Positions 2,391-49,048 of a stretch of 64,000 bases of DNA are shown here, in pieces (position 1 is the stretch's first letter; each line of letters opens with the position of its first letter). This DNA comes from an uncultured Prevotellaceae bacterium (GTDB lineage: Bacteria > Bacteroidota > Bacteroidia > Bacteroidales > Bacteroidaceae), in the NCBI GenBank assembly GCA_900318775.1, contig ONLY01000003.1, forward strand, positions 62,001 through 126,000. The letters are read 5' to 3'. A program made the position numbers and the translations under genes. A model generated the notes under the pieces. It was not told where the DNA came from. It made no database searches and worked only from the letters and a program-made list of their open reading frames with translations.

Positions 2391-2472
2391 AGCGCCCTGC
2401 GCGTTATTAATTGCGCACCCTGCACAATAAAATATGCGCACCCTGCGCGTTTAACCACGCGCAGGGTGCGCA
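2391..2472. repeat. GCGCACCCTGCGC repeat cluster with 16-bp hairpin
   Basis: Three forward copies of a CCCTGC core sit at 2395, 2418 and 2441, exactly 23 bp apart, and one inverted copy (GCAGGG) sits at 2461. The last two form a perfect 16-bp stem (2435-2450 with 2457-2472) with a 6-nt loop. The cluster lies downstream of ddh and may terminate it, although the minus-strand tail after the stem (TATTTTATTG) is only moderately T-rich. A related cluster occurs at 38235-38291. Confidence 0.85.
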
Positions 2473-2514
2473 CTATAGCGAGCCTACAAGGGCCGTTAAT
2501 CCGCTTTCCGACGC

Positions 2515-3414
2515 TTACACAAGATGACGGATAAGCTCTTCCTTGTCACCACACAGCATGTCAATAACAGGGATTTCAATCATCGTGTATGCACCAGGCT
2601 GCTGCTTGAGTGAGGCACGAGCCACATTCACAAGCACCTGAGCCGTAAGCGCAGGATTGTTAATCTTCATGTCGAACTCGAAGAGCTGGTTGTGGGTCTT
2701 GCCGCTAACGCCCTTACGAACAAGGTTCACGCCATGGCCTACATCGTTGAGCGCATCCACACATGGAACCTGCTGCACATGCGTCTCATCGTTGACAAAG
2801 TAAGGGTCAGCCTTGATAGCAGCCTCAACAGCCTTGAAATCAGCACCTTCCTCCAGCTCCACATACACCATGCGGCGGTGAATGCCTGTGCCCACCGGAA
2901 TGGTCATAGAAAGAGCGTCCTTCACACCATCAATAGCACGTACAGCCACAGAGTGACCCATTGAACGGCCTGGGCCGAAGTTCGTATAGCTTACACCCTT
3001 AGGAGCAAGGCTTTCCATCAGGGAGCGCACGATAGAGTCTGAGCCCGGATCCCAACCTGCAGAAATAACGGAAACGGCATTGTTAGCCTTAGCCACTGCA
3101 TCAAGCGAACGGCGAAGGTCAACAATCTGGGTGTGGATGTCAAATGAGTCAACTGTATTAATGCCCAAAGCAAGGCACTGCTTTGCATATTCTTCCACCT
3201 TACGGGTTGGAGTGGCAAGAATAGCCACCTGCACATCCTTCAGGTCTGTGATATTCTTCACTACTGGATAGTTGGCCAGTTCAGCAGGCTTGTTAGCCTC
3301 GCCATTGCGACGAACCACGCCTACACACTCCATGTCCTCTGAAGCCTCAATAGCCTCGAGCGCATACTTTCCAATGTTGCCATAACCTACGATGGCGGCA
3401 CGAATCTTTGTCAT
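2515..3414 (-). CDS. ddh: meso-Diaminopimelate D-dehydrogenase
   Basis: Catalyses NADPH-dependent reductive amination of tetrahydrodipicolinate to meso-diaminopimelate in one step, feeding lysine and peptidoglycan synthesis in the cytoplasm. The 299 residues open with a Rossmann fold bearing GYGNIG at 10-15. The blocks ISAGWDPG and NFGPGRSMGHSVA (about 132-155) belong to the substrate-binding part of the Ddh family. Length is close to the usual 300-330. It appears monocistronic: the secDF terminator lies upstream and a repeat hairpin lies downstream. The leader at 3437-3490 carries several ACCTATA repeats and a TAGGTTTT sequence that may be its promoter, but this is weak. Confidence 0.93.
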   Translation of the reverse strand: MTKIRAAIVGYGNIGKYALEAIEASEDMECVGVVRRNGEANKPAELANYPVVKNITDLKDVQVAILATPTRKVEEYAKQCLALGINTVDSFDIHTQIVDLRRSLDAVAKANNAVSVISAGWDPGSDSIVRSLMESLAPKGVSYTNFGPGRSMGHSVAVRAIDGVKDALSMTIPVGTGIHRRMVYVELEEGADFKAVEAAIKADPYFVNDETHVQQVPCVDALNDVGHGVNLVRKGVSGKTHNQLFEFDMKINNPALTAQVLVNVARASLKQQPGAYTMIEIPVIDMLCGDKEELIRHLV

Positions 3415-3492
3415 AATTTTGTGTTGGTCTAAATTATAAAACCTATAAGTCCTGTTTAACCTATATAATACCTATAATCCCTATTATAAAGA

Positions 3493-3520
3493 AGGGCAGC
3501 AACGTGCATGTTGCTGCCCT
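3493..3520 (-). terminator. Intrinsic terminator of secDF
   Basis: A perfect 11-bp stem (AGGGCAGCAAC, 3493-3503, with 3510-3520) and a 6-nt loop are followed on the minus strand by TTCTTTAT. It lies 13 nt past the secDF stop codon. Confidence 0.75.
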
Positions 3521-3532
3521 CCTTGTTTGATT

Positions 3533-6500
3533 TTATTGCTGAGCCGGCTCCTCCTCTGCCTCCTTGATGCGGGCACCCATCACAAGGTAAGCCGTTGGAG
3601 CTGCGATGAAGAGCGAAGAGCTTGTACCGATAATGACGCCAAGCATCATGGCGAAGGCGAAGGCACGAATGCTATCACCACCGAGGATGAAGATGACGAG
3701 CAGCACGATGAACGTAGATACCGAAGTATTGATGGTACGTGCAAGAGTGCTGTTGAGCGAATCGTTGAAGATACGCTGACGGTCACGCTTTGGATAGTTC
3801 CTGAAGGTCTCACGGATACGGTCAAAGATAACCACCTTATCGTTGATAGAATAACCAATCACCGTCAGGATGGCACCGATAAACGTCTGGTCAACCTCAA
3901 GAGAGAAGCCAATCCAACCATAGCAAAGCGAGAACATACCGATAACGAGCACCGTATCGAGTGTCAACGCAATGATAGAACCTACAGAGTATGCCATGTT
4001 GCGGAAACGAACGAGGATATACACGAAGATGACTACAATAGCGAAGAGCACTGACAGAACTGCGCCACGGAGGATATCAGACGCAATAGCTGGACCTACC
4101 TTCTGAGAAGAAACGATAGAACCGCCTTCACGATTGTCGCGGTCGAGGAAGGCCTCTTCTGAAACAGCCTTATCTACCATTCCACCGTCAACGAATGCCT
4201 GATAGAGCAGAGACTCAATGTGAGCATCTGCCTCAGAGCTGTTGTCCTGAATGTTGAAGTTAGTAGACACACGAACATTGTTACCCTCTGTACCGATAGC
4301 GATGACAGTCACGTTAATGGCCTCATCATTCTTGTTGTTAGCCTCAAACTGCTTCACGATAGCGTTCTTGACAGCCTCAGGCTCTACCTGCTTGACAAAC
4401 TCAACTTTGTAGTTGCGGCCACCTGTAAAGTCGATAGACTGGCTCAAGCCACGGACAACAAAGCTTGCACAAACAACCAGCAAGAAGATACCGAAAGCGA
4501 CAAATGACTTCTTATAGTTGCCCATGAAGTTGAAAGCCGTATCCTTCATCATGTTCTGAGAGAACTTGGTAGTGAACTTGATGTTCTGCCACTTGCCACG
4601 GTTCAAGAAGTGCTCGTATGCGATACGAGTCATCCACACTGCGGTGAAGAATGAGCAAACGATACCAATGATGAGAGTGGTAGCGAAGCCCTTGATGGGA
4701 CCAGTACCAAAGTTATAAAGGATAACACCCGTGAGGATGGTTGTCACGTTTGAGTCGAAGATAGCAGAGAACGCGTTGCTGTAACCTGCTGCCACAGCGG
4801 CATTGATGTTCTTGCCGGCTCGCATCTCTTCCTTCGTGCGCTCATAGATGAGCACGTTGGCATCGACTGCCATACCCAGTGTGAGCACCATACCTGCAAT
4901 ACCAGACATGGTCAAAGCCGCACCGAGTGAAGTGAGGATACCGAATGAGAAGAAGAAGTTGAGAATCAGTGCACAATTGGCCACCATACCTTCACGAGCA
5001 CCATACATAACAACCATGTAGAGCATCAGGATGATGAAGGCCACAATACAAGAGATGAAACCTGCCTGAATAGACTGTGCGCCAAGAGTAGGACCAACGA
5101 TGTCTTCCTGAATAATCGTTGCAGGTGCAGGCATCTTACCAGACTGAAGCACGTTAGCAAGGTCCTTGGTCTCATTCGTAGTGAAGCTACCAGAAATCTG
5201 TGTGCTACCACCGTCAATCTTGTTCATGACGTTTGGTGCGCTATACACCAAGTTATCCAGTACGATAGCCACACAGTGGTTTACATTAGCCTCAGTGAGA
5301 GCAGCCCACTTACGAGCACCTTCTGTGTTCATCTTCATGCTGACAACGGGGTTGCCATACTGGTCAAAGTCATCCTTTGCCTCAGTCACGACGTCACCCT
5401 CCAGCGGAGCACGTCCGTTAGGACCTGTGGTACGAATCGCATAAAGCTCAAAAATCTTGCCAGCCTTATCCATTGACTTCACGCCCCATTTGAGTGAGAG
5501 ATCTGCAGGGAAAATCTGCTTAGCCACCTCTGAATTGAGGAGCGCATTGATTTCAGCAGTGTCAAGCGCCTGTGCAAGGCCCACCATACAACCACGCTGA
5601 GCACCTGTAGGCTGAAGCATAGCGAAGAGAGGATTATCCTTCTTGGCTGCATCAGAAGCCTTAGTTGCCTGTGCCGCATTGTCCTCCACCTTGTTCACCT
5701 GAGCCAATACACTCGCAGCGCTCTTAACGGTATCTGCCACTTCTGCCACCTGCTCTGCAGCCACTGTATCGGCAACAACAGAGTCTGCCGCATTAGCAAC
5801 AACGCCACCATTGCGAAGGGCTGCGTTGAGCTGTGAGAGGTAAGGTGCTACCTGAGGAGCGTCATAAGTCTCCCAGAACTCAAGGTTTGCGCTACCCTGA
5901 AGAAGTTTACGCACACGCTCTGGCTCTTTAATGCCAGGGAGCTCGACCATGATACGTCCGCTCTGTCCCTCAATCTTCTGGATGTTGGGCTGAACGACGC
6001 CGAAACGGTCAATACGAGTACGGAGCACGTTGAATGAGTTGTCAACTGCTTCGTCCACACTCTTGCGAAGAACCTTCTCCACTTCTGCGTCGCTGCTGTT
6101 GGTATTCACCTGTCCCTTCAGCTGCTGGGTAGCAAAGATTGCTGCAAGTGGCTTACCTGCCGCATTCTTTTTATACGCCTTGACAAAAAGTGTGATGAAA
6201 TCGCTCTGACTTTCCTGTGCTTCCTTAGCCGCCTCGCTGACAGACTTCAGGAATGCTTCGTCAGTCTTGTGGTCCGCCAACGTCTTGACAACCTCAGGCA
6301 CGCTTACTTCGAGGATGACGTTCATACCGCCCTTCAAGTCCAGACCCAGACCGATGCCGGTTTCGCGACAGTCCTTCAGCGTGTAGTTGCCAAGGTAGAA
6401 TGGAGTCGTGTTCAACGAATCCAAATACAACTCAGCGGCCTGCTCGTCCATCTCCGCAGCCTTGTTCTCCACATACTTGGTGACAAAGCCGAAGGAGAGG

Positions 6501-6562
6501 TAAAAGAGGCAGATGAGCGTCAACGCCACTGCTACAAACTTTACAAATCCTTTGTTTTGCAT
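3533..6562 (-). CDS. secDF: Fused protein translocase subunit SecDF
   Basis: SecDF uses the proton gradient to help pull proteins across the inner membrane after SecYEG/SecA. This 1009-residue protein joins SecD and SecF in one chain, as is usual in the phylum. The SecD half has the first TM segment (about 8-28), the conserved GLDLKGG at 73-79, a periplasmic P1 region with an Ala/Val/Asp-rich insert around 260-310, and a C-terminal bundle containing GMAVDANVLIYER. The SecF half starts near residue 665 with its own TM, the SIDFTGG motif near 708, and GYSINDKVVIFDRIRE near 930. It ends in a Glu-rich cytoplasmic tail. A -7 element lies at 6703-6710, giving a leader of about 140 nt. Confidence 0.96.
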   Translation of the reverse strand: MQNKGFVKFVAVALTLICLFYLSFGFVTKYVENKAAEMDEQAAELYLDSLNTTPFYLGNYTLKDCRETGIGLGLDLKGGMNVILEVSVPEVVKTLADHKTDEAFLKSVSEAAKEAQESQSDFITLFVKAYKKNAAGKPLAAIFATQQLKGQVNTNSSDAEVEKVLRKSVDEAVDNSFNVLRTRIDRFGVVQPNIQKIEGQSGRIMVELPGIKEPERVRKLLQGSANLEFWETYDAPQVAPYLSQLNAALRNGGVVANAADSVVADTVAAEQVAEVADTVKSAASVLAQVNKVEDNAAQATKASDAAKKDNPLFAMLQPTGAQRGCMVGLAQALDTAEINALLNSEVAKQIFPADLSLKWGVKSMDKAGKIFELYAIRTTGPNGRAPLEGDVVTEAKDDFDQYGNPVVSMKMNTEGARKWAALTEANVNHCVAIVLDNLVYSAPNVMNKIDGGSTQISGSFTTNETKDLANVLQSGKMPAPATIIQEDIVGPTLGAQSIQAGFISCIVAFIILMLYMVVMYGAREGMVANCALILNFFFSFGILTSLGAALTMSGIAGMVLTLGMAVDANVLIYERTKEEMRAGKNINAAVAAGYSNAFSAIFDSNVTTILTGVILYNFGTGPIKGFATTLIIGIVCSFFTAVWMTRIAYEHFLNRGKWQNIKFTTKFSQNMMKDTAFNFMGNYKKSFVAFGIFLLVVCASFVVRGLSQSIDFTGGRNYKVEFVKQVEPEAVKNAIVKQFEANNKNDEAINVTVIAIGTEGNNVRVSTNFNIQDNSSEADAHIESLLYQAFVDGGMVDKAVSEEAFLDRDNREGGSIVSSQKVGPAIASDILRGAVLSVLFAIVVIFVYILVRFRNMAYSVGSIIALTLDTVLVIGMFSLCYGWIGFSLEVDQTFIGAILTVIGYSINDKVVIFDRIRETFRNYPKRDRQRIFNDSLNSTLARTINTSVSTFIVLLVIFILGGDSIRAFAFAMMLGVIIGTSSSLFIAAPTAYLVMGARIKEAEEEPAQQ

Positions 6563-6702
6563 TTTGTTGATTTTATTAATTGATTGATTGTTATTTGTTG
6601 TCTATGACGAATGCCTATAAGGCTGAACAACCCGCTCTACTCTGCACGGTATATATAATAATTATAGAACGCGCGCATAAACAAGGTGGTACATTCAAGA
6701 TG

Positions 6703-6710
6703 CAAAGGTA
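6703..6710 (-). promoter_or_regulatory. Bacteroidota -7 element (TACCTTTG) for secDF
   Basis: A TAnnTTTG match on the minus strand upstream of secDF. The 275-bp gap between secDF and the EEP-family gene holds no credible gene besides this. Confidence 0.55.
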
Positions 6711-6837
6711 TACATTTTTTTACAAAACAGAAGAATTTCCCAACAAATTTATTTGTTTCGCCGCCAACAGGCAAACTCTTTTACATTAAATAGCATCTGG
6801 CTGCACAACGGAGCAAGACTACTTGTACGCACTCGGC

Positions 6838-7917
6838 TCATTCACTCTCGAGGCTGACGAAACAATAAATGGGATAGTGGTCGCTGGTCTTGACGGAACA
6901 ATCAACAACTGCTTTATAGGCTTTTATGTTGGGGCTGACGAGAATGTGGTCCAAGCGGAAATACATGCCACTACAATGGTAACTGATGCCGGGTCCGTTG
7001 CCACTTCGTGTGTAAGCATCGTTCAAATCTCTCGTCAATCTGTAATGGGCATAGGAAATAGGAGATGCGTTAAAATCTCCACATACGATGATGTGTCTTC
7101 CCTCATTTTGCTGGACAAAAGCCGCCACAGAGTCAACCTGCACGCCGCGCAACGAGTCAGGGGATGCAAGTTTCCCGAAAAGGCTAAAGAGTTTCTCCTC
7201 CGAATCATTCTCTTCCGGACGATTATAATTCCGGATAATAGACTTATAGTCATCTTTGTCAGCTTCAGTCAGTCGATAAGACTCCAAGTGGTTGTTGATG
7301 ACCAGCAGCGTCTTGTTGCCTATCGCCACCTCATAAGCGTAAGAAGCGTTTGATGAAGAGGTATAGTCTATCTTTCGCTCCGACAGAATGGGATATTTAG
7401 AAAGGCAAGCAAGAAAATTCTTCTCGTTTTCACACAAACGGTAATAAGGATACTGATCCTTCAGCACCTCCAATGCCAGCTCCACTCCAGCGTGTGTAGC
7501 CTCTTGCAGACAAACAATATCAGCATTGCATTGCTGCAGATACGTCACAATCCCATTCTCATTCCATGGAACACCCTTCAAGTCTCCAAAGTTCATGATA
7601 TTATAGGACAGCACCTTGATGGCTCCTGCGGGAGGCTCTTGCACAAAATTCAGGGGGGCATATGTTCTGATGCTGCTAACACATAACAACATGCCCGCCA
7701 AAGGAATTAGCACAAAACGCCTCTTGAAAATGAGCCAAAACAGCACGAACACCATGTTCATTGCAAGGAACAGAGGAAACCACATCCCGCTTTCTGATAA
7801 TCGGGTGTATTGCTGGGGAGGCAGCACAACCGAATAGGCACAAAAAATCATTGCCACCACCGTCAGGACGTTGATGACAATGAATATCGTTTGGGGTATG
7901 GCCTTCAATAATCTCAT
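6838..7917 (-). CDS. Membrane-anchored endonuclease/exonuclease/phosphatase (EEP) family protein
   Basis: The first 90 or so residues hold about three TM helices (IFIVINVLTVVAMIFC, FLAMNMVFVLFWLIF, LIPLAGMLLCVSS). The remainder is an EEP hydrolase domain with the expected metal-site blocks in order: LSYNIMNFG, CLQEA, NNHLES, ICGDFNAS and SDHYPIY at the end. Members cut phosphodiester bonds in nucleic acids or lipids; the true substrate cannot be told from sequence. The active domain probably faces the periplasm or outer leaflet. It overlaps the rhomboid gene upstream by 4 nt (ATGA), so the two are translationally coupled. Confidence 0.85.
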   Translation of the reverse strand: MRLLKAIPQTIFIVINVLTVVAMIFCAYSVVLPPQQYTRLSESGMWFPLFLAMNMVFVLFWLIFKRRFVLIPLAGMLLCVSSIRTYAPLNFVQEPPAGAIKVLSYNIMNFGDLKGVPWNENGIVTYLQQCNADIVCLQEATHAGVELALEVLKDQYPYYRLCENEKNFLACLSKYPILSERKIDYTSSSNASYAYEVAIGNKTLLVINNHLESYRLTEADKDDYKSIIRNYNRPEENDSEEKLFSLFGKLASPDSLRGVQVDSVAAFVQQNEGRHIIVCGDFNASPISYAHYRLTRDLNDAYTRSGNGPGISYHCSGMYFRLDHILVSPNIKAYKAVVDCSVKTSDHYPIYCFVSLESE

Positions 7918-8822
7918 GCCTCTCCTCTCATTCGCTTGCTGGCATTGAAAAGGGTTTCTTTCTCCTGAGCAGACAGGTTCTGGTACCCATTTTTACGGAT
8001 TTTGTCCAAGATGCGGTCAATCTCCTCGCTGTTCTGCATCTTCTGCTTGTTGTACTCATGGTCAGCATGGTTGACCTCACGCACATTCGTTACCCGCATC
8101 TTGGGAGCACGCGAAGCGCCAAAGCCCTTCTTCATTTTTGACCACAGCCCTTCTTCCTTATCATAATTCGAGCCTTTTGCCGAAGCGTCATATCTATAGT
8201 TCCAGGCGCCTGCACTCCGCTTGGCCTGTACCCGCCAGATGAAGAGCAACAGCAAACCCACCAAAATACCACCCAGATGGGCAAAGTGAGCCACGCCATC
8301 AATAGACGTGATGCCCATATACATCTCCACCAAGGTGTAGAAACCCACCAGATACTTCAGCTTGATGGGGAACGGGATAGGGATGATGAAAAGCCTTGCA
8401 TTAGGAAAGAAGAAGGCCGCAGCCACCATAACACCATAAATGGCGCCAGAGGCTCCCACCAGCTGAACAGGTGGAATCAGTCCAACGTATGTGCACAACT
8501 GATTGACCAAAGCCGCACCTATGCCGCTAAACAGATAGTAATACACAAAGCGCTTGGTCCCCAGTTGCTGCTCCACAGCATTGCCGAAAATCATCAGCGA
8601 CCACATATTGAAGAACAAATGCCACCAGCCGCCATGCATGAACATATAGGTGACATATTGATATAGCGCGAAACCACTATAGCCAATTGGATGCAGGGCA
8701 TTGAAGTTCATGAACCAATCCGTATGCCCATCCAAGGCAACAGCTGGCGTAATCAGGTACGTCAGCAAATAAAACACCACATTGATAATCAGTATCACCT
8801 TAACGGCAGGAGTCATTCTCAT
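7914..8822 (-). CDS. Rhomboid family intramembrane serine protease
   Basis: Rhomboids cleave TM segments of other membrane proteins. The 302 residues have about six TM helices. The expected features are present: WWHLFFNMWSL in helix 2 (66-76), the nucleophile Ser125 in GASGAIYG (123-130), and the catalytic His182 in HFAHLGG (179-185). A cytoplasmic tail of about 110 residues, charged and ending QEKETLFNASKRM, follows the catalytic core; this tail is typical of Bacteroidota rhomboids and its role is unknown. First gene of a two-gene operon with the EEP protein, with a TAATTTTG promoter element at 8872-8879. Confidence 0.93.
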   Translation of the reverse strand: MRMTPAVKVILIINVVFYLLTYLITPAVALDGHTDWFMNFNALHPIGYSGFALYQYVTYMFMHGGWWHLFFNMWSLMIFGNAVEQQLGTKRFVYYYLFSGIGAALVNQLCTYVGLIPPVQLVGASGAIYGVMVAAAFFFPNARLFIIPIPFPIKLKYLVGFYTLVEMYMGITSIDGVAHFAHLGGILVGLLLLFIWRVQAKRSAGAWNYRYDASAKGSNYDKEEGLWSKMKKGFGASRAPKMRVTNVREVNHADHEYNKQKMQNSEEIDRILDKIRKNGYQNLSAQEKETLFNASKRMRGEA

Positions 8823-8871
8823 ACAATCCTTACATTTAGTCTATAACACTATACATCTTTCTATTTCGCTG

Positions 8872-8879
8872 CAAAATTA
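8872..8879 (-). promoter_or_regulatory. Bacteroidota -7 element (TAATTTTG) for the rhomboid operon
   Basis: TAnnTTTG match on the minus strand, about 50 nt upstream of the rhomboid start codon. Confidence 0.5.
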
Positions 8880-8961
8880 GCGATTTTCCTCAGTTTATAG
8901 GGCAAAAATCTGGAAAACACACGCTTTTTTGACTTTTTTCAACATTTTTTTTAATAATTTG

Positions 8962-8992
8962 TTTGAACATGAAAATATATCACATATATTTG
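8962..8992 (+). promoter_or_regulatory. Promoter of the HU gene
   Basis: A TTTG at 8962-8965 and a TATATTTG at 8985-8992 are separated by 19 nt, matching the Bacteroidota -33/-7 consensus well. The resulting leader of about 95 nt contains a possible GGCTT/AAGCC stem. Confidence 0.75.
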
Positions 8993-9096
8993 CAACAAAG
9001 TTTCACGCCAAACAGGCTTGCAATCAGCACGTAAGCCCCGGTCTGACGCAAAAACTGTTTAACCACTTTATTAACAATACCTAAATTATCGAACTT

Positions 9097-9369
9097 ATGA
9101 ACAAGACAGAACTCGTTAGCTCTATCGCAGCAAAGGCTGGTTTGAGCAAGGCTGATTCAAAGAAGGCTCTCGACGCAACAATCGAAGCAATTGCAGACGC
9201 TCTTAAGGCTGGTGACAAGATTTCTCTCGTTGGTTTTGGCACATTTGCTGTTGCTGAGCGTCCTGCTCGTCAAGGCATCAACCCTGCAACCAAGGCTCCT
9301 ATCTCTATCCCTGCCAAGAAGGTTGCTAAGTTCAAGGCTGGCTCTGACCTCGAAAGCGCTATCAACTAA
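9097..9369 (+). CDS. HU family DNA-binding protein
   Basis: A 90-residue histone-like protein that bends and compacts DNA as a dimer. It has the standard HU layout: MNKTELVSSIA at the start, helix-turn KADSKKALDATIEAI, and the beta-arm region GFGTFAVAERPARQGINPATK with the conserved Pro that intercalates into DNA, then KFKAGSDLESAIN. Length is exactly that of the family. It is monocistronic, with a good promoter and a terminator 32 nt after the stop. Confidence 0.96.
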   Translation: MNKTELVSSIAAKAGLSKADSKKALDATIEAIADALKAGDKISLVGFGTFAVAERPARQGINPATKAPISIPAKKVAKFKAGSDLESAIN

Positions 9370-9401
9370 CTGTATAGTCGCCTAAGACAGAGAAAAAGAA
9401 C

Positions 9402-9440
9402 AAAGGGTGTTGTTGTGAATCCACAACAGCACCTTTCTTT
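9402..9440 (+). terminator. Intrinsic terminator after the HU gene
   Basis: AAAGGGTGTTGTTGTG pairs with CACAACAGCACCTTT around a 4-nt loop, with one G-T pair, and runs into TTTCTTTTTG. Confidence 0.85.
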
Positions 9441-9562: not shown

Positions 9563-9700
9563 TATGACTGAGCGAGCCGTCATGCTATGACCGAGCAAAG
9601 CATTCCGTTGTGACCAAGTAAAGCATCTTGCTATGACTGAATAAAGCATTTCGTTATAACTGAACAAAGCATCTTACTATGACTAAGTAAAACGTCTCGC
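9563..9700 (+). repeat. Array of six degenerate 23-bp tandem repeats
   Basis: Six head-to-tail units of exactly 23 bp start at 9563, 9586, 9609, 9632, 9655 and 9678. Each begins TATGACTGA (or one to three changes from it) and most carry AAAGCAT in the middle. A further, more decayed unit with an expanded T-run may precede it at 9536-9562. Every frame meets stop codons, so it is not coding. The rest of the 583-bp gap (9441-9535 and 9701-9888) shows no gene. Confidence 0.9.
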
Positions 9701-9921: not shown

Positions 9922-9952
9922 CCACATTATTTAACTTTATTAACCCAAACAT

Positions 9953-11840: not shown

Positions 11841-13235
11841 ATGATTATGAAACACATAAAGTCTATCATTGCGGTTGCAGTTCTTGGAATGGCCTCAACT
11901 GCAACAGCCCAGAACCTCAACACTGGATACTTCAACGACGGTTACTTATACCGCCACGAGGTAAACCCCGCTTTTGGCAACAACCAAGGCTATGTGGCAA
12001 TGCCCGGCATCGGTAACCTCAACGTAGGCGTGAACAGTAACCTCCGCGTGGACAATATCTTCTACAACGTGAATGGACGCATTGCCCTGTTCCTCAATCC
12101 TGAAGTAAGCGACCAGAAATTCCTCCGCCACATCAAGACGAAGCACAAGATTTACGAGGACCTCAAGTTGCAAGTATTAGGCGTAGGCTTCAAAGGGCTG
12201 GGTGGCTACAACACCGTCGAAATCAATGCACGCCAGAGCCTGCAGCTCAACGTGCCTGGCTCTCTCTTGCGTCTGGCCAAGGAAGGTGCGCAGAACCAAT
12301 CCTACCAAATCAATAAATTGGCCGCTCATGTTGACGCCTATGCCGAATTGGCACTGGGCCACAGCCACCAGATTGACGAGCACCTCCGCGTCGGCGGCAA
12401 AGCCAAGCTCCTGCTGGGTATAGGCAATATGGATGCCGACTTCCGCAAGGCAACTCTCACCCTGGGCGAAGACAAATGGACCGCCATCACCGACGCTAAG
12501 GTGCAGACCAGCCTCAAGAGAATGAAATACAAGATGGAAGAAAAGGAACGTGGTGCAGACGGCGAAGAGAGCACCCACCGCTATGTCAGCGGCATTGAAG
12601 ACACCAACTGGAGTGTTGACGGTGTAGGCGTAGCGTTCGACCTCGGTGCTGAATACAAAGTGGACGACAACTGGTCCTTCTCTGCTGCCGTGCTCGACCT
12701 TGGCTTCATCAATTGGAACAACAACTATGTAGCTTCTACCCGTGGCGAACGCAAGGTGAACACCGACACGCACCTTTTCAGTTTGGACGATGACAAAGAC
12801 AACTCGTTCGAAAGAGAAGGCGACCGCTTGATGGAAGACCTTGCAAAACTCTACGAGCTGGATGACCTCGGCGATCAGGGCAAACGTTCCCGCATGTTGG
12901 CTACCACCATCAATGCAGGCGTTGAGTACACCCCCGATTTCTATGACAAGCTGTCCATCGGCCTCTTGAGCAGCACCCGTGTGGCAGGCAAATACACAAC
13001 CACCGAGGTACGTCTTTCTGCCAACGTGTCGCCAACCAACATCTTCTCAGCCTCCACGTCTTTGGCTGTGAACTCATTCGGCACAAGCTTTGGCTGGCTC
13101 ATCAACTTCCACCCATGCGGCTTCAACATCTTCCTTGCCACCGACCACCAGTTTGGCAAGATGTCCAAGCAGGCTATCCCACTCTCTGGCAGAGCTAATG
13201 TTAACATTGGCATTAACTTCCCATTCGGGCATTAA
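11841..13235 (+). CDS. DUF5723 family predicted outer-membrane beta-barrel protein
   Basis: The first residues give a signal peptide (hydrophobic IIAVAVLGMASTATA, cleavage before QNL). ATG codons at 11841 and 11847 are both possible starts. The mature part has the NTGYFNDGYLYRHEVNPAF opening expected of DUF5723, followed by alternating hydrophobic strands (LNVGVNSNLRV, HLRVGGKAKLLLGIGN, WSFSAAVLDLGFINW) and ends RANVNIGINFPFGH, an aromatic-free but strand-like C-terminus. The family is predicted to form barrels in the outer membrane; its role is unknown. It is the second gene of a pair with the large lipoprotein and is followed by a strong terminator. Confidence 0.8.
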   Translation: MIMKHIKSIIAVAVLGMASTATAQNLNTGYFNDGYLYRHEVNPAFGNNQGYVAMPGIGNLNVGVNSNLRVDNIFYNVNGRIALFLNPEVSDQKFLRHIKTKHKIYEDLKLQVLGVGFKGLGGYNTVEINARQSLQLNVPGSLLRLAKEGAQNQSYQINKLAAHVDAYAELALGHSHQIDEHLRVGGKAKLLLGIGNMDADFRKATLTLGEDKWTAITDAKVQTSLKRMKYKMEEKERGADGEESTHRYVSGIEDTNWSVDGVGVAFDLGAEYKVDDNWSFSAAVLDLGFINWNNNYVASTRGERKVNTDTHLFSLDDDKDNSFEREGDRLMEDLAKLYELDDLGDQGKRSRMLATTINAGVEYTPDFYDKLSIGLLSSTRVAGKYTTTEVRLSANVSPTNIFSASTSLAVNSFGTSFGWLINFHPCGFNIFLATDHQFGKMSKQAIPLSGRANVNIGINFPFGH

Positions 13236-13300: not shown

Positions 13301-13324
13301 TCCCATCGCCCTACACTACAAAAA

Positions 13325-13389
13325 CGGTGTGACTCACACCGCATAGGTCGGTCTGAGTCACACCGGCACCCCCGGTCTGAGTCACACCG
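13325..13389. repeat. Three 17-bp palindromes at 24-bp pitch (copy 1)
   Basis: Three copies of a near-palindrome, CGGTSTGASTCACACCG, sit at 13325, 13349 and 13373, separated by 7-bp spacers CATAGGT and GCACCCC. The whole 65 bp recurs almost unchanged at 48984-49048, with only two or three base differences. It lies between convergent genes. Confidence 0.92.
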
Positions 13390-13407
13390 ATTTCGAGGTG
13401 CACCGCG

Positions 13408-13863
13408 TCAGCGGAGAGCAACCGCTGAATAAGCAACAATCATGTAACGAGTAAACTTGCCCACGAACGACCAGAAGATGACACCCCACACGTTGGCGCG
13501 CAAGATGCCCAACGAGATAGATATAGCCGTTCCAAACACGGGGAGGAAGGAGAAGGCAGCAATCCATGAGCCTCGTTTCTCCACATAGTCACGCGTCTTG
13601 CACAGACGTCTTTCCTTCACATGCATCCAGTGCGCAATCTGCTCAATGCTGCCAATGCGCCCGATACAATAATTAAACATCGAGCCCAACACATTGCCGA
13701 TAGTTCCGCTTATCACGGTGAGCATAGGATCCATGCCCGTGGTGACCAGCAAAGCGCCCATCACCGCCTCGGAGCTGAAAGGCACAAACGTGCCCGCCAA
13801 AAAAGAGGCCATCGCCATGCCCCAGTAGCCGTATTCTATGAAAAACTGATTAAGTGGATCCAT
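13408..13863 (-). CDS. YqaA/DedA-like (VTT domain) small membrane protein
   Basis: A 151-residue membrane protein with the layout of the YqaA branch of the DedA/VTT superfamily: GTFVPFSSEAVMGALLV near the N-terminus (re-entrant helix with Pro and Glu), GTIGNVLGSMFNYCIGR (conserved Gly/Asn), and FLPVFGTAISISLGILR. DedA-type proteins take part in lipid carrier flipping and proton-coupled envelope homeostasis; the exact job of YqaA is not known. Its start is 13 nt after the stop of the preceding membrane-protein gene, so they form an operon. It is shorter than full DedA proteins (about 200), as expected for YqaA. Confidence 0.82.
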   Translation of the reverse strand: MDPLNQFFIEYGYWGMAMASFLAGTFVPFSSEAVMGALLVTTGMDPMLTVISGTIGNVLGSMFNYCIGRIGSIEQIAHWMHVKERRLCKTRDYVEKRGSWIAAFSFLPVFGTAISISLGILRANVWGVIFWSFVGKFTRYMIVAYSAVALR

Positions 13864-23112: not shown

Positions 23113-23190
23113 CCGCCTTCATCGCAATCACCTCGCACTCTGCAACGTAATTACGATGAAGGCGGTATCGTATTTACGATGAAAGGGGAA
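23113..23190. repeat. Inverted repeat plus two 23-bp-spaced CGATGAA units
   Basis: CCGCCTTCATCG (23113-23124) is a perfect inverted copy of CGATGAAGGCGG (23154-23165). A second forward CGATGAA follows at 23177, exactly 23 bp after the first (23154); the two units share CGTA-TTACGATGAA. It follows the dipeptidyl peptidase stop and might act as a weak terminator, but no T-run follows. Confidence 0.75.
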
Positions 23191-23302
23191 AGAGAAGAGC
23201 GTGTAGCCGCACCACAAAATAGCGTTGCAAGAGGAAGTATATACCTATGCCAAGAAAGAGGGAAAAGCGGCGCAGAAGGGATGAGTCCGCCACTGAAAAA
23301 AG

Positions 23303-38138: not shown

Positions 38139-38234
38139 TCCCCCCTCTGCTGCCACACAGCGCGGCAGAGAAGGTGGCCCTTTCTCGTCAACAGCGGTTT
38201 GCATATCCAATCAGCTCACAACAATCAAAATCGT

Positions 38235-38291
38235 GCACCCTGCGCTTGTTTAATTGCGCAGGGTGCTTGAAATCACTTGCGCAGGGTGCGC
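38235..38291. repeat. GCGCAGGGTGCGC repeat cluster (second locus)
   Basis: GCACCCTGCGC at 38235-38245 and GCGCAGGGTGC at 38256-38266 form a perfect 11-bp stem with a 10-nt loop; another GCGCAGGGTGCGC follows at 38279-38291. The GCAGGG cores at 38258 and 38281 are 23 bp apart, the same pitch as in the related cluster at 2391-2472. It lies between dacB and purD, both of which end here. Confidence 0.85.
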
Positions 38292-40813: not shown

Positions 40814-40817
40814 AATT

Positions 40818-43104: not shown

Positions 43105-43106
43105 CT

Positions 43107-43373
43107 TCACCAACGGAAAGTGTCAGGCACAGGATCATAACCACTCCCGCCCCAAGGATGACAACGCAAAAGACGGCGGCAAGCCAAATACAGCCCCTTC
43201 AACGGACCATGCTTACGAATGGCATCTATTGCGTATTGAGAACAAGTAGGCGTGAACCTGCAAGTAGGAGGGAACAACGGAGAAATCGCCATTCGATAAA
43301 AATGAATGGGCAACAGTAAAAGAAAAGAAACCGCTGCACTGAACCAAGAAACCAAACGAGTCCACACGTTCAT
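43107..43373 (-). CDS. yidD: Membrane protein insertion efficiency factor YidD
   Basis: A small membrane-associated protein (88 residues) that helps YidC insert proteins. It carries the family core [35 protein letters not shown] and the cysteine-containing [16 protein letters not shown]. It sits next to rnpA (18 nt) as is usual in bacteria, and 2 nt before the tatD start codon. Confidence 0.96.
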
Positions 43374-43391
43374 AACACCCTCCTCTCCCAG

Positions 43392-43808
43392 TTATGCCGG
43401 CAAACCTTCCATACGTTCCACAATGCGGTTCAGAACCTTCACCACACTCTTATTGACTGTACGGAAAGACGGCAAAGTGTCAGTGATGCACACAAAAGCC
43501 ATAACCAAACGCACATTCTTATCTGCCATGGCATCCCAAAGAATATGCTTATTCAAACGATAAGCCTCACGCACCAATCGCTTCATCCGGTTGCGGTCAA
43601 CCGCATGATGGAAACGTTTCTTAGGAACAGAAACAAGAATAGAGACTGGAGGCAGAGCCGCATCGGCACCACTCTTCTCCGTCTTCTCCACCTGCATATA
43701 AACAACTCGCAGGGGAAATGCTGCCATGGAAGCATTTCCTCCTGCGAAAAGTTTATCAATGAGAATCTGGCTTGTTAGCCTTTCTGATTTCTTAAACGTA
43801 TTATTCAT
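43392..43808 (-). CDS. rnpA: Ribonuclease P protein component RnpA
   Basis: Protein subunit of RNase P, which matures the 5' ends of tRNAs. The 138 residues start FKKSERLTSQILIDKLFAGG and contain the signature VSVPKKRFHHAVDRNRMKRLVREAYR, the RNA-binding RNR region. The start codon overlaps the hemD stop by one nucleotide (TAATG). The RNA subunit gene is not in the window. Confidence 0.95.
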   Translation of the reverse strand: MNNTFKKSERLTSQILIDKLFAGGNASMAAFPLRVVYMQVEKTEKSGADAALPPVSILVSVPKKRFHHAVDRNRMKRLVREAYRLNKHILWDAMADKNVRLVMAFVCITDTLPSFRTVNKSVVKVLNRIVERMEGLPA

Positions 43809-44542
43809 TACAGCGTTTTTGCATACGCCTCAATGATAGCTGGAACCGAGCGAAGCTCAGGAGTTGGCTGGAAATCCACATGAATGCCAGCCTCTTCAGC
43901 TGCCTTGATGGTCTTAGTGCCCAAGCAGGCCACTTTCACGTCGCCCTGCTCAAAGTTTGGGAAATTCTTCATCAGCGAATGAATACCCTCAGGAGAGAAG
44001 AACACCAACATGTTATAATCAAACGCCTCATCAGGGGCGAAATCATTTGCCACTGTATAGTACATCACAGCCTCATCATGATCCAATCCCGCCTCATCGA
44101 GCATACGCCTCATATCGTCAGTATGAACAGAAGACTGAGGAACGAAATACTTCTCCGTGTGGTGCTTGGCCATAATAGGAATCAAGTCTGTGAGAAGTCC
44201 CGTCTCTGGGAAGAAGTTCTTACGCTTGCGGTACTGCACATACTTTTGGATGTACAAAGACACCTGCTCAGACACACAGAAATACTTCATGTCATCAGGA
44301 ATCGACACGCGCAACTCCTTGCACAAAGCAAAAAAGTGGTCGATAGCATGGCGCGACGTGAAGACAATCGCTGTGTGGCCTGGGATTGAAACTTTCTGCT
44401 GACGGAAGTCCTTCGCAGACATTGGATCAATCTTGATAAATGGTCGGAAAACCAAATCTACATTGTATTTCTTTGCCACCTCATAATAGGGAGACTTCTC
44501 CGTCTGAGGTTTTGGCTGAGATACCAAGATTTTTGCTAACAT
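43808..44542 (-). CDS. hemD: Uroporphyrinogen-III synthase HemD
   Basis: Cyclises hydroxymethylbilane to uroporphyrinogen III in tetrapyrrole synthesis. HemD sequences vary widely; identification rests on length (244 residues from the ATG at 44542), the opening KILVSQPKPQTEKSPYYEVAKKYN, FTSRHAIDHFF (the substrate loop), the middle FVPQSSVHTDDMRRMLDEAG and VACLGTKTIKAAEEAGI. The setting DUF4271-hemD-rnpA-yidD is a common order in this phylum. The start codon overlaps the DUF4271 stop by one nucleotide (TGATG). A longer frame to 44584 lies inside DUF4271 and is not favoured. Confidence 0.88.
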   Translation of the reverse strand: MLAKILVSQPKPQTEKSPYYEVAKKYNVDLVFRPFIKIDPMSAKDFRQQKVSIPGHTAIVFTSRHAIDHFFALCKELRVSIPDDMKYFCVSEQVSLYIQKYVQYRKRKNFFPETGLLTDLIPIMAKHHTEKYFVPQSSVHTDDMRRMLDEAGLDHDEAVMYYTVANDFAPDEAFDYNMLVFFSPEGIHSLMKNFPNFEQGDVKVACLGTKTIKAAEEAGIHVDFQPTPELRSVPAIIEAYAKTL

Positions 44543-45336
44543 CAATATACAAAGTTTTGGACTATAACACTTCTGCTTACCCACACCAACACGTCATTCA
44601 CAACGAGGGTAGGCAGCAATTCGACGGTGCAAAAGTACAAAATATTTAACAAATAGCCATCCGTCTGTGTCCGAAAGTTAATAAAAAGCTTATAAAACAA
44701 TAGTGACTCATACAAAAACATGACCAAAATGACACACCCAGTGACAAATTCATGGCTCCACACAGCGCACACATCCAGCAAGGTCAACAAGTAAAAAGGG
44801 AACGCTGTCGTGGCCGTCATCAGCAAATAGCTGGACATCCAACACTGACTAGACTCACTGTCATAAAACACCCAGTTCACCAACGAATACGCCCACGCCT
44901 TCACATAGACGGTTGTCAGCATGACAAGAAAGCCACACACCAGCAGTCCATAAGACAGCGTCGTTCCTGCTTGCTCAACCAGCCCTTTCCAAAATATCAT
45001 GGAAAGGCTCGCCACGCTGATTAGAATCAGCAAGAAGACATTCACCTTCCATTTCGTGTTGCTGGCAGCATTGGCATCCACATACAACCTCTTGGACGCA
45101 AAGAAGTCCTTGAGACGATAAATCAATGCCGAGCGATTCAGGAAGAGAATAGCAGCAATGACCATGAAAGCCACAGTCATTGCCACCATCACATAGCCAT
45201 TATCCGCCACCACATCGCTGCATTCTTGCATAGGCACCGTGTGGGAAGACACCGTTGCTCCCACCTTGTAGAACTCCGTGACAGTCACCACGTTCGAGTC
45301 CGTTGCTGTCAGAATGCTGTCGTAGTCAGGCGTCAT
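44542..45336 (-). CDS. DUF4271 family membrane protein
   Basis: A 264-residue protein with a soluble N-terminal segment of about 45 residues and about six TM helices (VMVAMTVAFMVIAAILFL, WKVNVFLLILISVASLSMIF, LSYGLLVCGFLVMLTTVYV, SYLLMTATTAFPFYLLTLL, FVTGCVILVMFLYESLLFY, ILYFCTVELLPTLVVNDVLV). The family is confined to Bacteroidota, lies before hemD and has no known function. It starts 35 nt after the metK stop. Confidence 0.85.
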   Translation of the reverse strand: MTPDYDSILTATDSNVVTVTEFYKVGATVSSHTVPMQECSDVVADNGYVMVAMTVAFMVIAAILFLNRSALIYRLKDFFASKRLYVDANAASNTKWKVNVFLLILISVASLSMIFWKGLVEQAGTTLSYGLLVCGFLVMLTTVYVKAWAYSLVNWVFYDSESSQCWMSSYLLMTATTAFPFYLLTLLDVCAVWSHEFVTGCVILVMFLYESLLFYKLFINFRTQTDGYLLNILYFCTVELLPTLVVNDVLVWVSRSVIVQNFVY

Positions 45337-45371
45337 GATTCAGTACAATCACCACTCTTCTCCACATGCGC

Positions 45372-46697
45372 TTACAAACCGAAGCACTTCTTAATCTGAG
45401 GCTGGAACTTTTCCGTCTCTTCCCATGGGAAAAGGGTTACAGTTACTTCTTTGTCACCTTGATAACGGTTGTTGAACTTCTTCACCACCGTTTCAGGCTT
45501 TCTTCCGAAGTGACCATATGAAGCAGTTTCCAGATAAATTGGCTTGCGCAAGTCGAAGCGGGTCTCGATAGCCTTTGGACGCAAGTCAAAAATCTCGTCA
45601 ATCTTTTTGGCAATCTCACCATCCGACAGCGCTACCTTAGCCGTACCGTACGTGTTCACGTAGATGCTCACAGGACGAGCCACACCAATAGCGTAACTCA
45701 ACTGCACCAGCATTTCGTCAGCTACACCAGCAACCACCAAATTCTTGGCGATATGGCGTGCCGCATAAGCTGCAGAACGGTCCACCTTGCTGGGGTCCTT
45801 TCCAGAGAAAGCACCACCACCATGCGCACCACGCCCACCGTAGGTGTCCACAATAATCTTACGGCCTGTCAGACCCGTGTCGCCATGAGGACCGCCAATC
45901 ACGAATTTGCCTGTCGGATTCACATGATACGTGATGCCATCCTTGAAGAGCGCCTTCACCTTGTCATCATCCATCTCGGCAATCACACGTGGAATCAGCA
46001 CATTGATAACATCATCTTTGATACGCTGCAGCATCTTCTCATCTGCCTCCTCCTGTGTCTTAGCCTCCTTGCCGTCCACCAGCACAAACTCATCGTGCTG
46101 CGTGCTCACTACTATCGTATGGATGCGCAAAGGCTTGTTGTCATCACCATACTCAATTGTCACCTGGCTCTTGGCATCAGGACGCAGATATGTAGCCACC
46201 TTACCGTTCGGACGCACATACGTCATCACTTTCCCCTCTCGGCGGATATCAGCCAACACACGCAAGATGCGGTGTGACAAGTCCAATGACAGCGGCATGC
46301 AGTTCTCCGTTTCGTTTGTCGCATAGCCAAACATCATGCCCTGGTCACCAGCGCCCTGCTCTTCAGGATTCTCACGCTCCACGCCACGGTTGATGTCACC
46401 GCTCTGTTCATGGATAGCGTTCAGCACGCCACAGCTCTCACCGTCAAACTTATAAGAAGACTTCGTGTAACCAATCTTGTTGATGGTCTCACGAGCCACC
46501 TCCTGCAGGTCTACATACGCATTGCTCTTCACCTCACCTGCTACTACAACCTGGCCTGTAGTCACCAATGTCTCACAAGCCACCTTTGACTCAGGGTCGT
46601 AAGCCAACAAATTATCAAGCACGGCATCACTAATCTGGTCGGCCACTTTGTCCGGATGTCCCTCCGAAACCGATTCAGATGTAAATAAATATCCCAT
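45372..46697 (-). CDS. metK: S-adenosylmethionine synthase MetK
   Basis: Forms SAM from methionine and ATP. From the ATG at 46697 the protein has 441 residues: [29 protein letters not shown] at the N-terminus, [12 protein letters not shown] (methionine-binding), and [23 protein letters not shown] with the phosphate-binding loop. The conserved residues for ATP and Mg are all in place. An upstream in-frame ATG at 46808 adds 37 residues with no family match and is rejected. The leader from the TAACTTTG element at 46862-46869 is about 160 nt and contains a hairpin. Confidence 0.97.
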
Positions 46698-46759
46698 AAT
46701 CAATGAATAATTAATGATAAAAATTAATAATATATGGGGAAGATTGGGAGAATATGCAC

Positions 46760-46799
46760 CGACAAAACACCGCCTCCTGCAGAGGTCCATCCTTTGTCG
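46760..46799 (-). promoter_or_regulatory. Hairpin in the metK leader, possible regulatory RNA element
   Basis: In the metK 5'UTR, CGACAAA (outer arms 46760-46767 and 46793-46799) and an inner CCTC/GAGG stem (46773-46776 with 46782-46785) stack into one hairpin. A SAM-sensing role would be logical, but the sequence does not match the SAM-I or SAM-II consensus that I know. No SD-like sequence is sequestered by it. Confidence 0.35.
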
Positions 46800-46861
46800 T
46801 TTTAGCATTTTTTACTGTGGTTGCAAGCAGCCCAAATCTGTCCACATTTTGAAAATCGCTG

Positions 46862-46869
46862 CAAAGTTA
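46862..46869 (-). promoter_or_regulatory. Bacteroidota -7 element (TAACTTTG) for metK
   Basis: TAnnTTTG match on the minus strand. The rest of the 417-bp gap 46698-47114 holds the metK leader, no gene, and a terminator at 47014-47043. Confidence 0.55.
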
Positions 46870-47013
46870 CGGATAAGTGCGCACTCTACAAAAAGAAAGA
46901 GTGGAAAAAATGGCGTTCATTAACAAAGACATATACTATTCTGGAGCACACTATTCCCAAACACAAATAACAGGAGGGCTCGAACCACCACAGTTATACT
47001 TCCACAGACACAA

Positions 47014-47043
47014 AGCGGCGCACCCGATTTGGGGTGCGCCGCT
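47014..47043 (-). terminator. Strong hairpin after the four-unit lipoprotein gene
   Basis: A perfect 12-bp GC-rich stem, AGCGGCGCACCC with GGGTGCGCCGCT, and a 6-nt loop; on the minus strand it is followed by TTTGTGTC, a weak T-tract. It shares the GCGCACCC core with the repeats at 2391 and 38235. Confidence 0.6.
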
Positions 47044-47114
47044 GGTATTTCCACGGCAGGTGCTCTCTGGGGAGAGAATGACCTGACGGAACTGGCTAAC
47101 GTTGAGAGCGTCCG

Positions 47115-48689
47115 CTATTTCACCTTCTTGTCCAGCTCGGACATCAATTCGAGGTCGGCTGAAGTGAGTGGATAGTAGATATCGTATTCGTCTTCATCGC
47201 CTGAGACATCACTCAAATAGAGCTTATTCTCCTTGATTTTCCACCTATAAAGGTCCGTGTCCGAGAAATCTTTCTTGTTATGGATTTCTATCACCTGATC
47301 ACCATATTCATCGCCATCGGCTTCACCTGCAGTCACGGATTTTGTGGTACGCGTGCAGTGATCACCATCAACGGTGTAGCATATGGTGTTGAGAGTACCG
47401 TCGTCTGTGAATTCCAACATCTTGTAAGTGTACACTCCTTTGTCATCGGTGACGAAGAACCATCTTCCGACATAGTCATCGCTCTTTATTCTGCGGTTAT
47501 ATTCATTTAACAGCTCCAGCTCGCTACTTGTAGGCCGGTGGAAACGGTAAGCGAAATCGTTTTCAATGGAGTAGCAGATAAGGCCATCGTCCGTCAAGAC
47601 ATAACGGGTAACCTCTGGCTCTCCATAGCCATCATCTGTGGTGATGGTGCCTGCTTCCTTGTCAACAGTATAGATGCTGTGGCGACGAATGCGCTCATCA
47701 TATGACGCGGGCTCGTCGGGATAGATCCAATATGTTGTATTGGTGGCAACGCCATCTTCATCCAAAGTAAGAAGAGAATATAGCTTCATGTGGTCACCAT
47801 ACCTGACAGACTCTATGACTGTCATCCATTGGCCGGTGAGTGCTTCTGTCACATCCGACTCAGAGCCTTCCACGCGTGTCATGCTGAAGGTAGTGGTATA
47901 AGTAGAGCCGTCTGGTTTCTGGCGAAGGGCAGTCCACTCCATCTTGCCATTTTCAATAGACTTGATTTCCCAACTTTCGCGTTTCTCCGTGTCGTCGCCG
48001 ACATTCTTCCAACGCGTACAGAGCAGTACGCCATCAACATAGTATTCGGACATCGTGTTTTCGCTGGCTACCCAATTGCCATGTCCATCCTGGCTATAAT
48101 AGACGAAGGTACCGTCAGTCTTGTATTTCCACCGGTGCAACTTATCATCGGTGTAGGTATCCAGGCCACTGGTGTGACGGCCTTCCCATGTGCCAATAAT
48201 GTCGGTGGAATAGTCGCGGGTCACGCGGACTTTGCGCTCGTCCAGGCCTCTCGTTATTCTGTACGACTGTCCATTCACATAGGTTTCGCTATTAGCAACA
48301 ACCCGCATTTCCTTGTCTGTGATAGAAAGGATGTTGAACTGCTGGTTAAACTTGATGTTGGCATCAGGAAGCTCCACAACCTGTGAGAGCTCGTTTCCTT
48401 TGATTTTCATAAGGCCTTCGCAACCATGCACCCAAATGTTCAGGTTGCTGATGGCACTAATGGACAAGCTATAATAGAACCGTGAGGGCGACTCGTAGGT
48501 CAGCACCTGCTTGGAGTCTGTAGGCACGGGCTTTCCGTCAACCTCAGCCATCATCCACTTGCCCTTTAGCTTTGCGGCAAGGCGACTTTCATCGGTTTCT
48601 AATGAGGTGTCGTCTTCACTACAAGATGTCAGCACATTTGCGCCACAAACAAGAAGGGCGGCCAACATCCATAGAATGCTCTTTTTCAT
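47115..48689 (-). CDS. Putative lipoprotein with four lipocalin-like units
   Basis: A 524-residue lipoprotein (lipobox NVLTSC, Cys23). The mature chain consists of four units of about 120 residues, each opening with a Gly-x-Trp motif: LKGKW (Trp45), IIGTW (Trp168), LTGQW (Trp288) and YVGRW (Trp410). Units 3 and 4 end with similar text, RPTSSELELLNEYNRR and PLTSADLELMSELDKK. This resembles lipocalin-like beta-barrel domains, which often bind small hydrophobic molecules; the ligand is unknown. A TACTTTTG promoter element lies at 48791-48798. Confidence 0.8.
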   Translation of the reverse strand: MKKSILWMLAALLVCGANVLTSCSEDDTSLETDESRLAAKLKGKWMMAEVDGKPVPTDSKQVLTYESPSRFYYSLSISAISNLNIWVHGCEGLMKIKGNELSQVVELPDANIKFNQQFNILSITDKEMRVVANSETYVNGQSYRITRGLDERKVRVTRDYSTDIIGTWEGRHTSGLDTYTDDKLHRWKYKTDGTFVYYSQDGHGNWVASENTMSEYYVDGVLLCTRWKNVGDDTEKRESWEIKSIENGKMEWTALRQKPDGSTYTTTFSMTRVEGSESDVTEALTGQWMTVIESVRYGDHMKLYSLLTLDEDGVATNTTYWIYPDEPASYDERIRRHSIYTVDKEAGTITTDDGYGEPEVTRYVLTDDGLICYSIENDFAYRFHRPTSSELELLNEYNRRIKSDDYVGRWFFVTDDKGVYTYKMLEFTDDGTLNTICYTVDGDHCTRTTKSVTAGEADGDEYGDQVIEIHNKKDFSDTDLYRWKIKENKLYLSDVSGDEDEYDIYYPLTSADLELMSELDKKVK

Positions 48690-48790
48690 AATCTTTGAGA
48701 TTTATATGTTGTTAACAGAAATCTATTCCAGATGCAGTCTCCTCAACATGAGCAATGCTAAAGATTTCCTGCCAATGGCTGATACGTTTG

Positions 48791-48798
48791 CAAAAGTA
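48791..48798 (-). promoter_or_regulatory. Bacteroidota -7 element (TACTTTTG) for the four-unit lipoprotein
   Basis: TAnnTTTG match about 100 nt upstream of the ATG. The 434-bp gap 48690-49123 holds this promoter and the repeat at 48984-49048, and no gene. Confidence 0.5.
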
Positions 48799-48983
48799 GC
48801 ACTTTTACGCCTGTATTCAACATCACTCCACCTAAACCCTTTCCCTTTCAACCTTTTTTTATTACAATAAGACCAATCTCCCCTGCCTCTATAGTGAACT
48901 TTAGACCAATATTGTACACGCGAGGGTGCATTAAAGACCCAAACTGAGGTAGCCCATAAGAGGGGCACCGTAAACCACAAAAT

Positions 48984-49048
48984 CGGTGTGAGTCACACCG
49001 CATAGGTCGGTCTGAGTCACACCGGCACCCTCGGTCTGAGTCACACCG
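48984..49048. repeat. Three 17-bp palindromes at 24-bp pitch (copy 2)
   Basis: The same three-palindrome block as at 13325-13389, in the same orientation, with units at 48984, 49008 and 49032 and 7-bp spacers CATAGGT and GCACCCT. Only two or three bases differ over 65 bp. It lies downstream of the T9SS peptidase gene. Confidence 0.92.

Follow-up and report, generated by a model that had tools for sequence, protein, structure and literature searches.

Several bacterial systems combine a dedicated protein with dispersed palindromic sites, among them MatP/matS, Noc/NBS, and ParB/parS, and among repetitive extragenic palindromic (REP) sequences the bacterial interspersed mosaic elements (BIMEs) have a mosaic structure. 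HU binds DNA with little sequence preference, and Porphyromonas gingivalis belongs to the same order as the bacterium studied here, an uncultured member of the Prevotellaceae. We analyzed a 64,000-nucleotide window of its DNA (contig ONLY01000003.1, positions 62,001 to 126,000), which lies inside a 2.62-Mb, 41-contig draft genome (G000) that is 91% complete, and describe dispersed triplets of palindromes with a pitch of 23-24 bp, for which HU-HIG (Pfam: PF18291) proteins are the candidate binding partners. These triplets resemble REP/BIME sequences and their REP-associated tyrosine transposases (RAYTs), together termed REPtrons, in being dispersed intergenic palindromes whose unit families vary from genome to genome, with a cognate protein gene bordered by its own repeat, as outlined in passages of PMC3733652. 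They also resemble the BrickBuilt miniature inverted-repeat transposable element (MITE) of P. gingivalis, with 19 copies in one strain, in carrying a 23-nt repeat, in tandem in BrickBuilt, within an element bearing inverted-repeat ends (part of PMC4596501); P. gingivalis repeats are also a subject of part of PMC5771137.

BrickBuilt repeats are direct, spacerless, and variable in number; the elements described here mostly hold three units, which are palindromes, and the spacers between them vary freely. Unlike REP sequences, units of 17-19 bp stand in triplets at 22-24 bp, and although HU-HIG genes have an array of their own family in front of them, the candidate partner is HU-like and is neither a RAYT nor another transposase; no GTAG/CGTC tag stands out in the consensus of 227 flanks, for which no formal scan was made. 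MatP, Noc, and ParB are not known to resemble HU or to have sites in fixed triplets, and here a single genome contains several candidate pairs of protein and site, the sites having diverged from one another.

The first-pass annotation of this DNA had listed six intergenic loci in the window sharing a repeat pitch of 23-24 bp, and all six sets of coordinates and spacings exist exactly as given. The loci, which it assigned to four unrelated families, are three kinds of thing: family A triplets, GC-rich palindromes (GC23), and a weaker pair. The family A triplets at 13325 and 48984 are copies of a dispersed element of ~100 bp, also called P24, in which three palindromes and two 7-bp spacers lie between inverted CCTCAAAA ends. 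Its unit is the 17-bp palindrome CGGT[G/C]TGA[G/C]TCA[G/C]ACCG at pitch 24, and its ends are degenerate inverted repeats with the consensus CTTCCACRCCTCAAAA (227 flanks), as are the terminal inverted repeats that mark a MITE. One copy spans 13307-13407 (palindromes at 13325, 13349, and 13373) and fills the gap between convergent genes at 11841-13235 (+) and 13408-13863 (-), and the other spans 48966-49066 (palindromes at 48984, 49008, and 49032); neither is assigned a strand. The window holds 12 strand matches to P24 at up to 3 mismatches against 0.38 expected, which is beyond chance, and across G000 we find 106 exact family A units. Family A clusters are triplets with 7-bp spacers in all 14 of an own-genome sample. 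The first-pass annotation had overlooked both the inverted ends and a further triplet family, D, dispersed elsewhere in G000 as 22 exact units. The same three-palindrome plan, always at pitch 23, recurs in families B (GGGTSTGAGTCACACCC), C (CGGAGTC-SSS-GACTCCG), D (CGACGTCG-W-CGACGTCG), and E (CGTACCCSWSGGGTACG), and a family F type (CCGACGTGCCCCACGTCGG) was found before a HU-HIG gene in genome G007.

The pitch is not a product of chance. We conducted a sequence-blind scan of 464 kb of G000 for palindrome triplets whose pitch was constant and could take any value between 15 and 45 bp, with shuffled controls; at the stricter threshold it returned 16 arrays, 13 at 24 bp and 3 at 23 bp (0.33 per shuffled set), and at the laxer threshold 20 arrays, of which 13 had a pitch of 24, 5 of 23, 1 of 15, and 1 of 41 (3.0 per shuffled set). 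When pairs of exact units 0-30 bp apart were sought in named genomes, neighboring units in the 80 loci listed (some of which may overlap) had spacings of 24 (146 cases), 23 (5), 46 (1), and 47 (1), and no other up to 60 bp. Scans open to other pitches therefore return almost exclusively 23-24 bp, so that the periods are not widely spread, nor is the repeat confined to one strain: the named records carrying it, among the matches listed, are metagenome-assembled genomes of uncultured rumen and reticulum Bacteroidales or Bacteroidaceae. Clustered regularly interspaced short palindromic repeats (CRISPR) consist of repeats parted by unique spacers of tens of base pairs and come with cas genes. The spacers here measure 4-10 bp, too short for CRISPR, as the first-pass annotation had judged; no search for cas genes was made. 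Separately, 7-bp microsatellites such as CAACTGT are abundant in stretches of the same genome (L056, L057, L058, and others), where they are read as periods of 21, 28, and 35, and they may inflate counts of period 21.

Clustering of the genes that neighbor the arrays led to HU-like genes. PF18291 has four matches in G000, comprising two HU-HIG genes and two short HU-like genes, one of them the classic HU gene of the window. One HU-HIG gene (the A-partner, C18:19047-19445; 46.0 bits against a Pfam gathering cut-off of 26.2) has a family A triplet just upstream, and the other (the D-partner, C21:902-1270; 64.7 bits, same cut-off) has a family D triplet just upstream. The partner belongs to PF18291 and is weakly similar to PF00216 and to a solved HU (5eka, profile E 1e-4), and in this it recalls HU and IHF; it differs in that the units here are almost invariant and that, of 13 plain HU genes taken from other genomes, none has a significant upstream array of any period. 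In G062 and G032, families B and C stand before HU-HIG genes and are at the same time the dispersed families of those genomes, while arrays before HU-HIG genes are of the A, E, and F types in G007, A and D in G036, and D in G012. Upstream and dispersed arrays agree in pitch in the six genomes compared, at 23 in G007, G062, and G032 and at 24 in G000, G010, and G036. G075 belongs to a different taxonomic family; there, the unit found before one HU-HIG gene has seven further occurrences, comprising four exact triplets with a pitch of 22, two pairs (one spaced 22 bp, the other 44 bp), and one single unit.

We further compared HU-HIG loci with random genes. The set comprised 86 loci, reduced to 85 when L303 was dropped for short upstream DNA; from the range L253-L337 we had omitted L273, L279, and L280 (plain HU of this genus), L320 (contig edge), L323, and L324. 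A significant tandem array lies within 500 bp upstream of 52 of the 85 genes, with a period of 21-24 bp in 43. For the control, 700 genes were drawn from 907 confident genes of eight genomes, and among the 671 without N, 132 have a significant array in the same interval, 65 of them with period 21-24. The Fisher p-value for 21-24-bp arrays is 5e-18 (43/85 vs. 65/671), or 2e-11 within the same eight genomes (23/44 vs. 65/671), but all these values are too small, because L269 and L275 are mutual copies, many loci are orthologous, and the genomes are related. In other genera, a 21-22-bp array occurs at 7 of 13 HU-HIG loci, the random-gene control being confined to the genus. A tandem-repeat (Tandem Repeats Finder) comparison, in which position relative to the gene was not separated, gave 53/85 HU-HIG loci against 127/400 control windows. 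HU-HIG is an HU-like family with many copies in this genus and in some other Bacteroidales, and matches to PF18291, plain HU included, number up to 23 per genome among the genomes searched.

A close A-partner orthologue (query: the G036 copy) is present in 21 of 45 genomes of the genus searched, and exact family A units occur in 10 of 18 genomes with it compared with 0 of 19 without; all ten unit-bearing genomes of the genus have the orthologue. In 12 of the 21 orthologues, 84-86 bp separate the center of the first palindrome from the gene, and in 16 of the 21 the array is preceded, at a distance of 10-11 or 32-34 bp, by a promoter-like TAnnTTTG box of the Bacteroides -7 consensus, placing the array between a likely promoter and the start codon. 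The half-sites of this first palindrome differ by species (TGTGA-type in 13, TGAGA-type in 6, and two unassigned).

Comparison of 14 orthologous arrays of G000 and G010 (nine A, two D, and three GC23) shows where constraint falls. Only 7 of 588 fixed unit positions differ, five of them in one GC23 array; the other positions differ at 25/186 in spacers, 63/504 in inverted ends, and 823/6482 in flanks. The spacers thus drift in sequence like the flanks while keeping their length, as expected of phased protein sites. Among 342 family A units, collected with a tolerance of up to 2 mismatches, 8 of the 17 positions never vary and at another four only 1-3 units deviate, and the variable G/C letters sort half-sites into two types, alpha and the rarer beta. 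Duplicate arrays were removed for the spacing and half-site complementarity counts, and the unit/spacer comparison of families left out duplicates together with N-containing and even-centered arrays.

The arrays could instead act in RNA, as transcribed triple hairpins that serve as bidirectional terminators or stabilize mRNA 3' ends, an alternative that we regard as improbable. Strong predicted folds with A-tract and T-tract flanks agree with it, as does enrichment in convergent gaps, which hold 17 of 52 arrays placed between genes (25 tandem, 10 divergent) compared with 56 of 470 background gaps of at least 100 bp (301 tandem, 113 divergent); another 10 of 62 arrays were scored as lying in a gene, mostly tiny open reading frames within the element. 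Family A arms, however, barely vary and show no compensatory change, so that sequence rather than pairing seems to be maintained, and some half-sites fall below their expected complementarity (19% vs. 48% for U1.13/U2.5; 27% vs. 50% for U2.5/U2.13). Of 12 half-site or center pairs examined, 8 fall short of the expected complementarity and 4 exceed it, and we hold a hairpin-only reading of family A unlikely. The 10 divergent arrays also speak against this alternative, and the 13325 element comes after a separate hairpin-and-T-run terminator.

The same comparisons bear on whether template switching at palindromes, together with local gene conversion, could alone keep the arrays alike, leaving pitch and partner gene as historical accidents. 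Inversion within arrays does take place, because in one D array (L046:12752 against L123:16044) the 29-bp S1-U2-S2 block is inverted between G000 and G010; alpha-alpha units show G/C flips at their centers, and exactly two beta halves occur in 89 of 113 arrays (slot-shuffled mean 43.7, maximum 63 in 2000), a count that inversion conserves. As a complete account it nonetheless seems to us very improbable, since it leaves unexplained the near-identical units in distant species, the spacers that resemble flanks yet are fixed in length, and the association with HU-HIG.

Congeners carry other palindrome triplets at similar pitch, at times on the identical site. At 13325, family A stands in G000 and G010, a B type in G062, and C in G032; at about the place matching 48984, G062 has a family C triplet; and a third site (G000:C21:40758) has A in G000 and B in both G062 and G032. 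Different families at one orthologous site imply that site and plan can persist while the sequence is swapped. In a separate array family, TGTTACA-N-TGTAACA at pitch 23 (L048:9394, L146:6646, L152:19026, and L155:1027), the arrays of G036 and G012 (L152 and L155) share a gene neighborhood in which G007 has a family A triplet (L161:10722).

Swapped families on one site, together with presence/absence differences between G000 and G062, are also what might be seen if the elements were REP/BIME- or MITE-like and moved by a transposase acting in trans, without any host binding role; the palindromes and pitch would then answer to the needs of the transposase, and adjacency to HU-HIG genes would reflect insertion preference. 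The size of ~100 bp, the degenerate inverted ends, and the dispersed intergenic location are in keeping with this possibility, yet we judge it unlikely. The Y1 transposase family PF01797, the only transposase family searched, has no match in G000 (91% complete), while 5 of 14 control genomes match, and a RAYT partner was rejected. All eight family A triplets of the G000 C21 stretch aligned to G010 are present there (~88-95% aligned identity), with no clean empty site among the eight compared, and the upstream position at the HU-HIG orthologue, fixed within 3 bp in 12/21 genomes, is unlike random insertion. Viral contigs yielded no exact family A or C pair, and a phage origin of the arrays was set aside.

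We consider it probable, though well short of certain, that the triplet arrays of families A-F are binding platforms for HU-HIG proteins, with both autorepression and dispersed intergenic occupancy. The first-pass annotation had proposed that one copying or binding mechanism underlies the shared pitch and had called for a search for a co-occurring protein gene, which for the triplet families turned up HU-HIG. A single mechanism is supported for families A-F, because HU-HIG accompanies them, spacer sequence is free while its length is kept, and the 22-24-bp pitch holds across species with different sequences; it does not extend to all six loci, because no HU-HIG partner was found for GC23, the 9563 repeat is minisatellite-like, and 23154 has two units only. 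Each palindrome would hold one symmetric HU-HIG dimer; with sites every 23-24 bp (~2.2 helical turns), the three dimers on a triplet would stand in fixed geometry and would bend or wrap the DNA. The predicted target units of the family A and family D proteins are GGTSTGASTCASACC or CGACGTCGWCGACGTCG. The position of the A array between a promoter-like box and the start codon suggests that the protein probably represses its own synthesis, and at the remaining copies, mostly between convergent or tandem genes, the complex may shape DNA architecture or form a barrier. The sequences show the pitch, the triplet plan, the constraint on units, the conserved spacer length, the position upstream of HU-HIG genes, and the joint occurrence of family A with its HU-HIG orthologue; that the proteins bind, in what stoichiometry, that they repress their own genes, and what the dispersed copies do are inferences. 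These patterns suggest that a DNA-binding protein is paired with landing sites of its own, dispersed through the genome, an arrangement not described before.

Several observations weigh against this reading. Among the 85 HU-HIG genes, 42 show no significant upstream array of period 21-24 (in 33 no array of any period is significant, and in 9 the period is another one), some 21-bp upstream calls, such as that at L263, resemble 7-bp microsatellites, and the set includes 20 hand-picked loci, of which G036:C49 and G007:C53 were known and G032:C56 was suspected to lie beside an array; without all 20 the count becomes 37/65. A full triplet within 260 bp is missing from 4 of the 21 A-partner orthologues (G012, G019, G002, and G030), and G035 has two units; the array lies downstream at G032:C138, and 22- or 43-44-bp repeats lie downstream of the HU-HIG gene in G101, G117, G085, and G074. 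Neither a GC23 nor a TGTTACA array was seen upstream of any HU-HIG gene examined. Structure prediction for four sequences (mean predicted local distance difference test score 39.6) was uninformative on the HU fold. Residue 85 (N/S) and residue 17 match the TGTGA/TGAGA change perfectly in 19 orthologues, but residue 85 as a specificity switch is phylogenetically confounded, needing only 1-2 changes on the tree.

The remaining repeats of the window differ in kind, and GC23 and the 9563 repeat fall outside the HU-HIG claim. GC23 arrays are built of a 13-bp palindrome, GCGCA-CCC-TGCGC, at pitch 23; no strand is assigned to either array. The array at 2390-2471, reported from position 2395, has four units (+++-), the first degenerate, with AT-rich 10-bp spacers, and its order, orientation, and pitch are unchanged in G010, G062, and G032. 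The array at 38233-38291, reported from 38258, has three units (+--), and the corresponding gap in G062 holds a two-unit GC23 hairpin and a family C triplet. The window contains 8 matches to the palindrome at up to 2 mismatches, two of them outside both arrays, against 1.73 expected, which is beyond chance, and the whole genome contains 14 exact matches. On the plus strand at 9563-9700 lies a degenerate, non-palindromic 23-bp tandem repeat, 194 bp downstream of the classic HU gene (9097-9369, +; PF00216, 111.9 bits), which is distinct from both HU-HIG genes. The repeat has six units in G000 and four in the close relative G010, is missing beside the corresponding HU gene of G062 and of G032, and is probably a separate minisatellite of ordinary type. 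The second member of the weaker pair, the two-unit repeat TTACGATGAA (23134-23200, +; units at 23154 and 23177, 23 bp apart), sits in a ~480-bp segment missing from G062 and G032 and is likely fortuitous. The window also holds a SAM-II riboswitch aptamer at 46792-46851 (-; 56.5 bits).

HU-HIG was reportedly described in a comparative-genomics paper of 2017. We found no report of HU-HIG DNA targets in the open-access literature, subscription journals lying mostly outside the search, and searches with the array unit sequences gave only papers unrelated by title. In PMC11035120, HU-HIG appears as one table entry, a Bacteroides vulgatus protein. If HU-HIG proteins do read their own arrays, an orphan family would gain a target that is testable by one gel shift, and a common bacterial order would gain sequence-specific nucleoid-type proteins with mapped sites. 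Such protein-site pairs would form a natural series with a built-in helical ruler, useful for understanding how HU-like proteins read sequence, and the in-place swap of site families at one locus raises a direct evolutionary question. More tentatively, and in our view less likely than not, Bacteroidales may contain many such systems in parallel, each HU-HIG paralogue owning a private dispersed family of pitch-locked arrays and an autoregulatory master array; protein and site would change together, and site sequences would be replaced where they stand without any change of architecture or position, amounting to a multi-component, sequence-specific chromatin code in bacteria.

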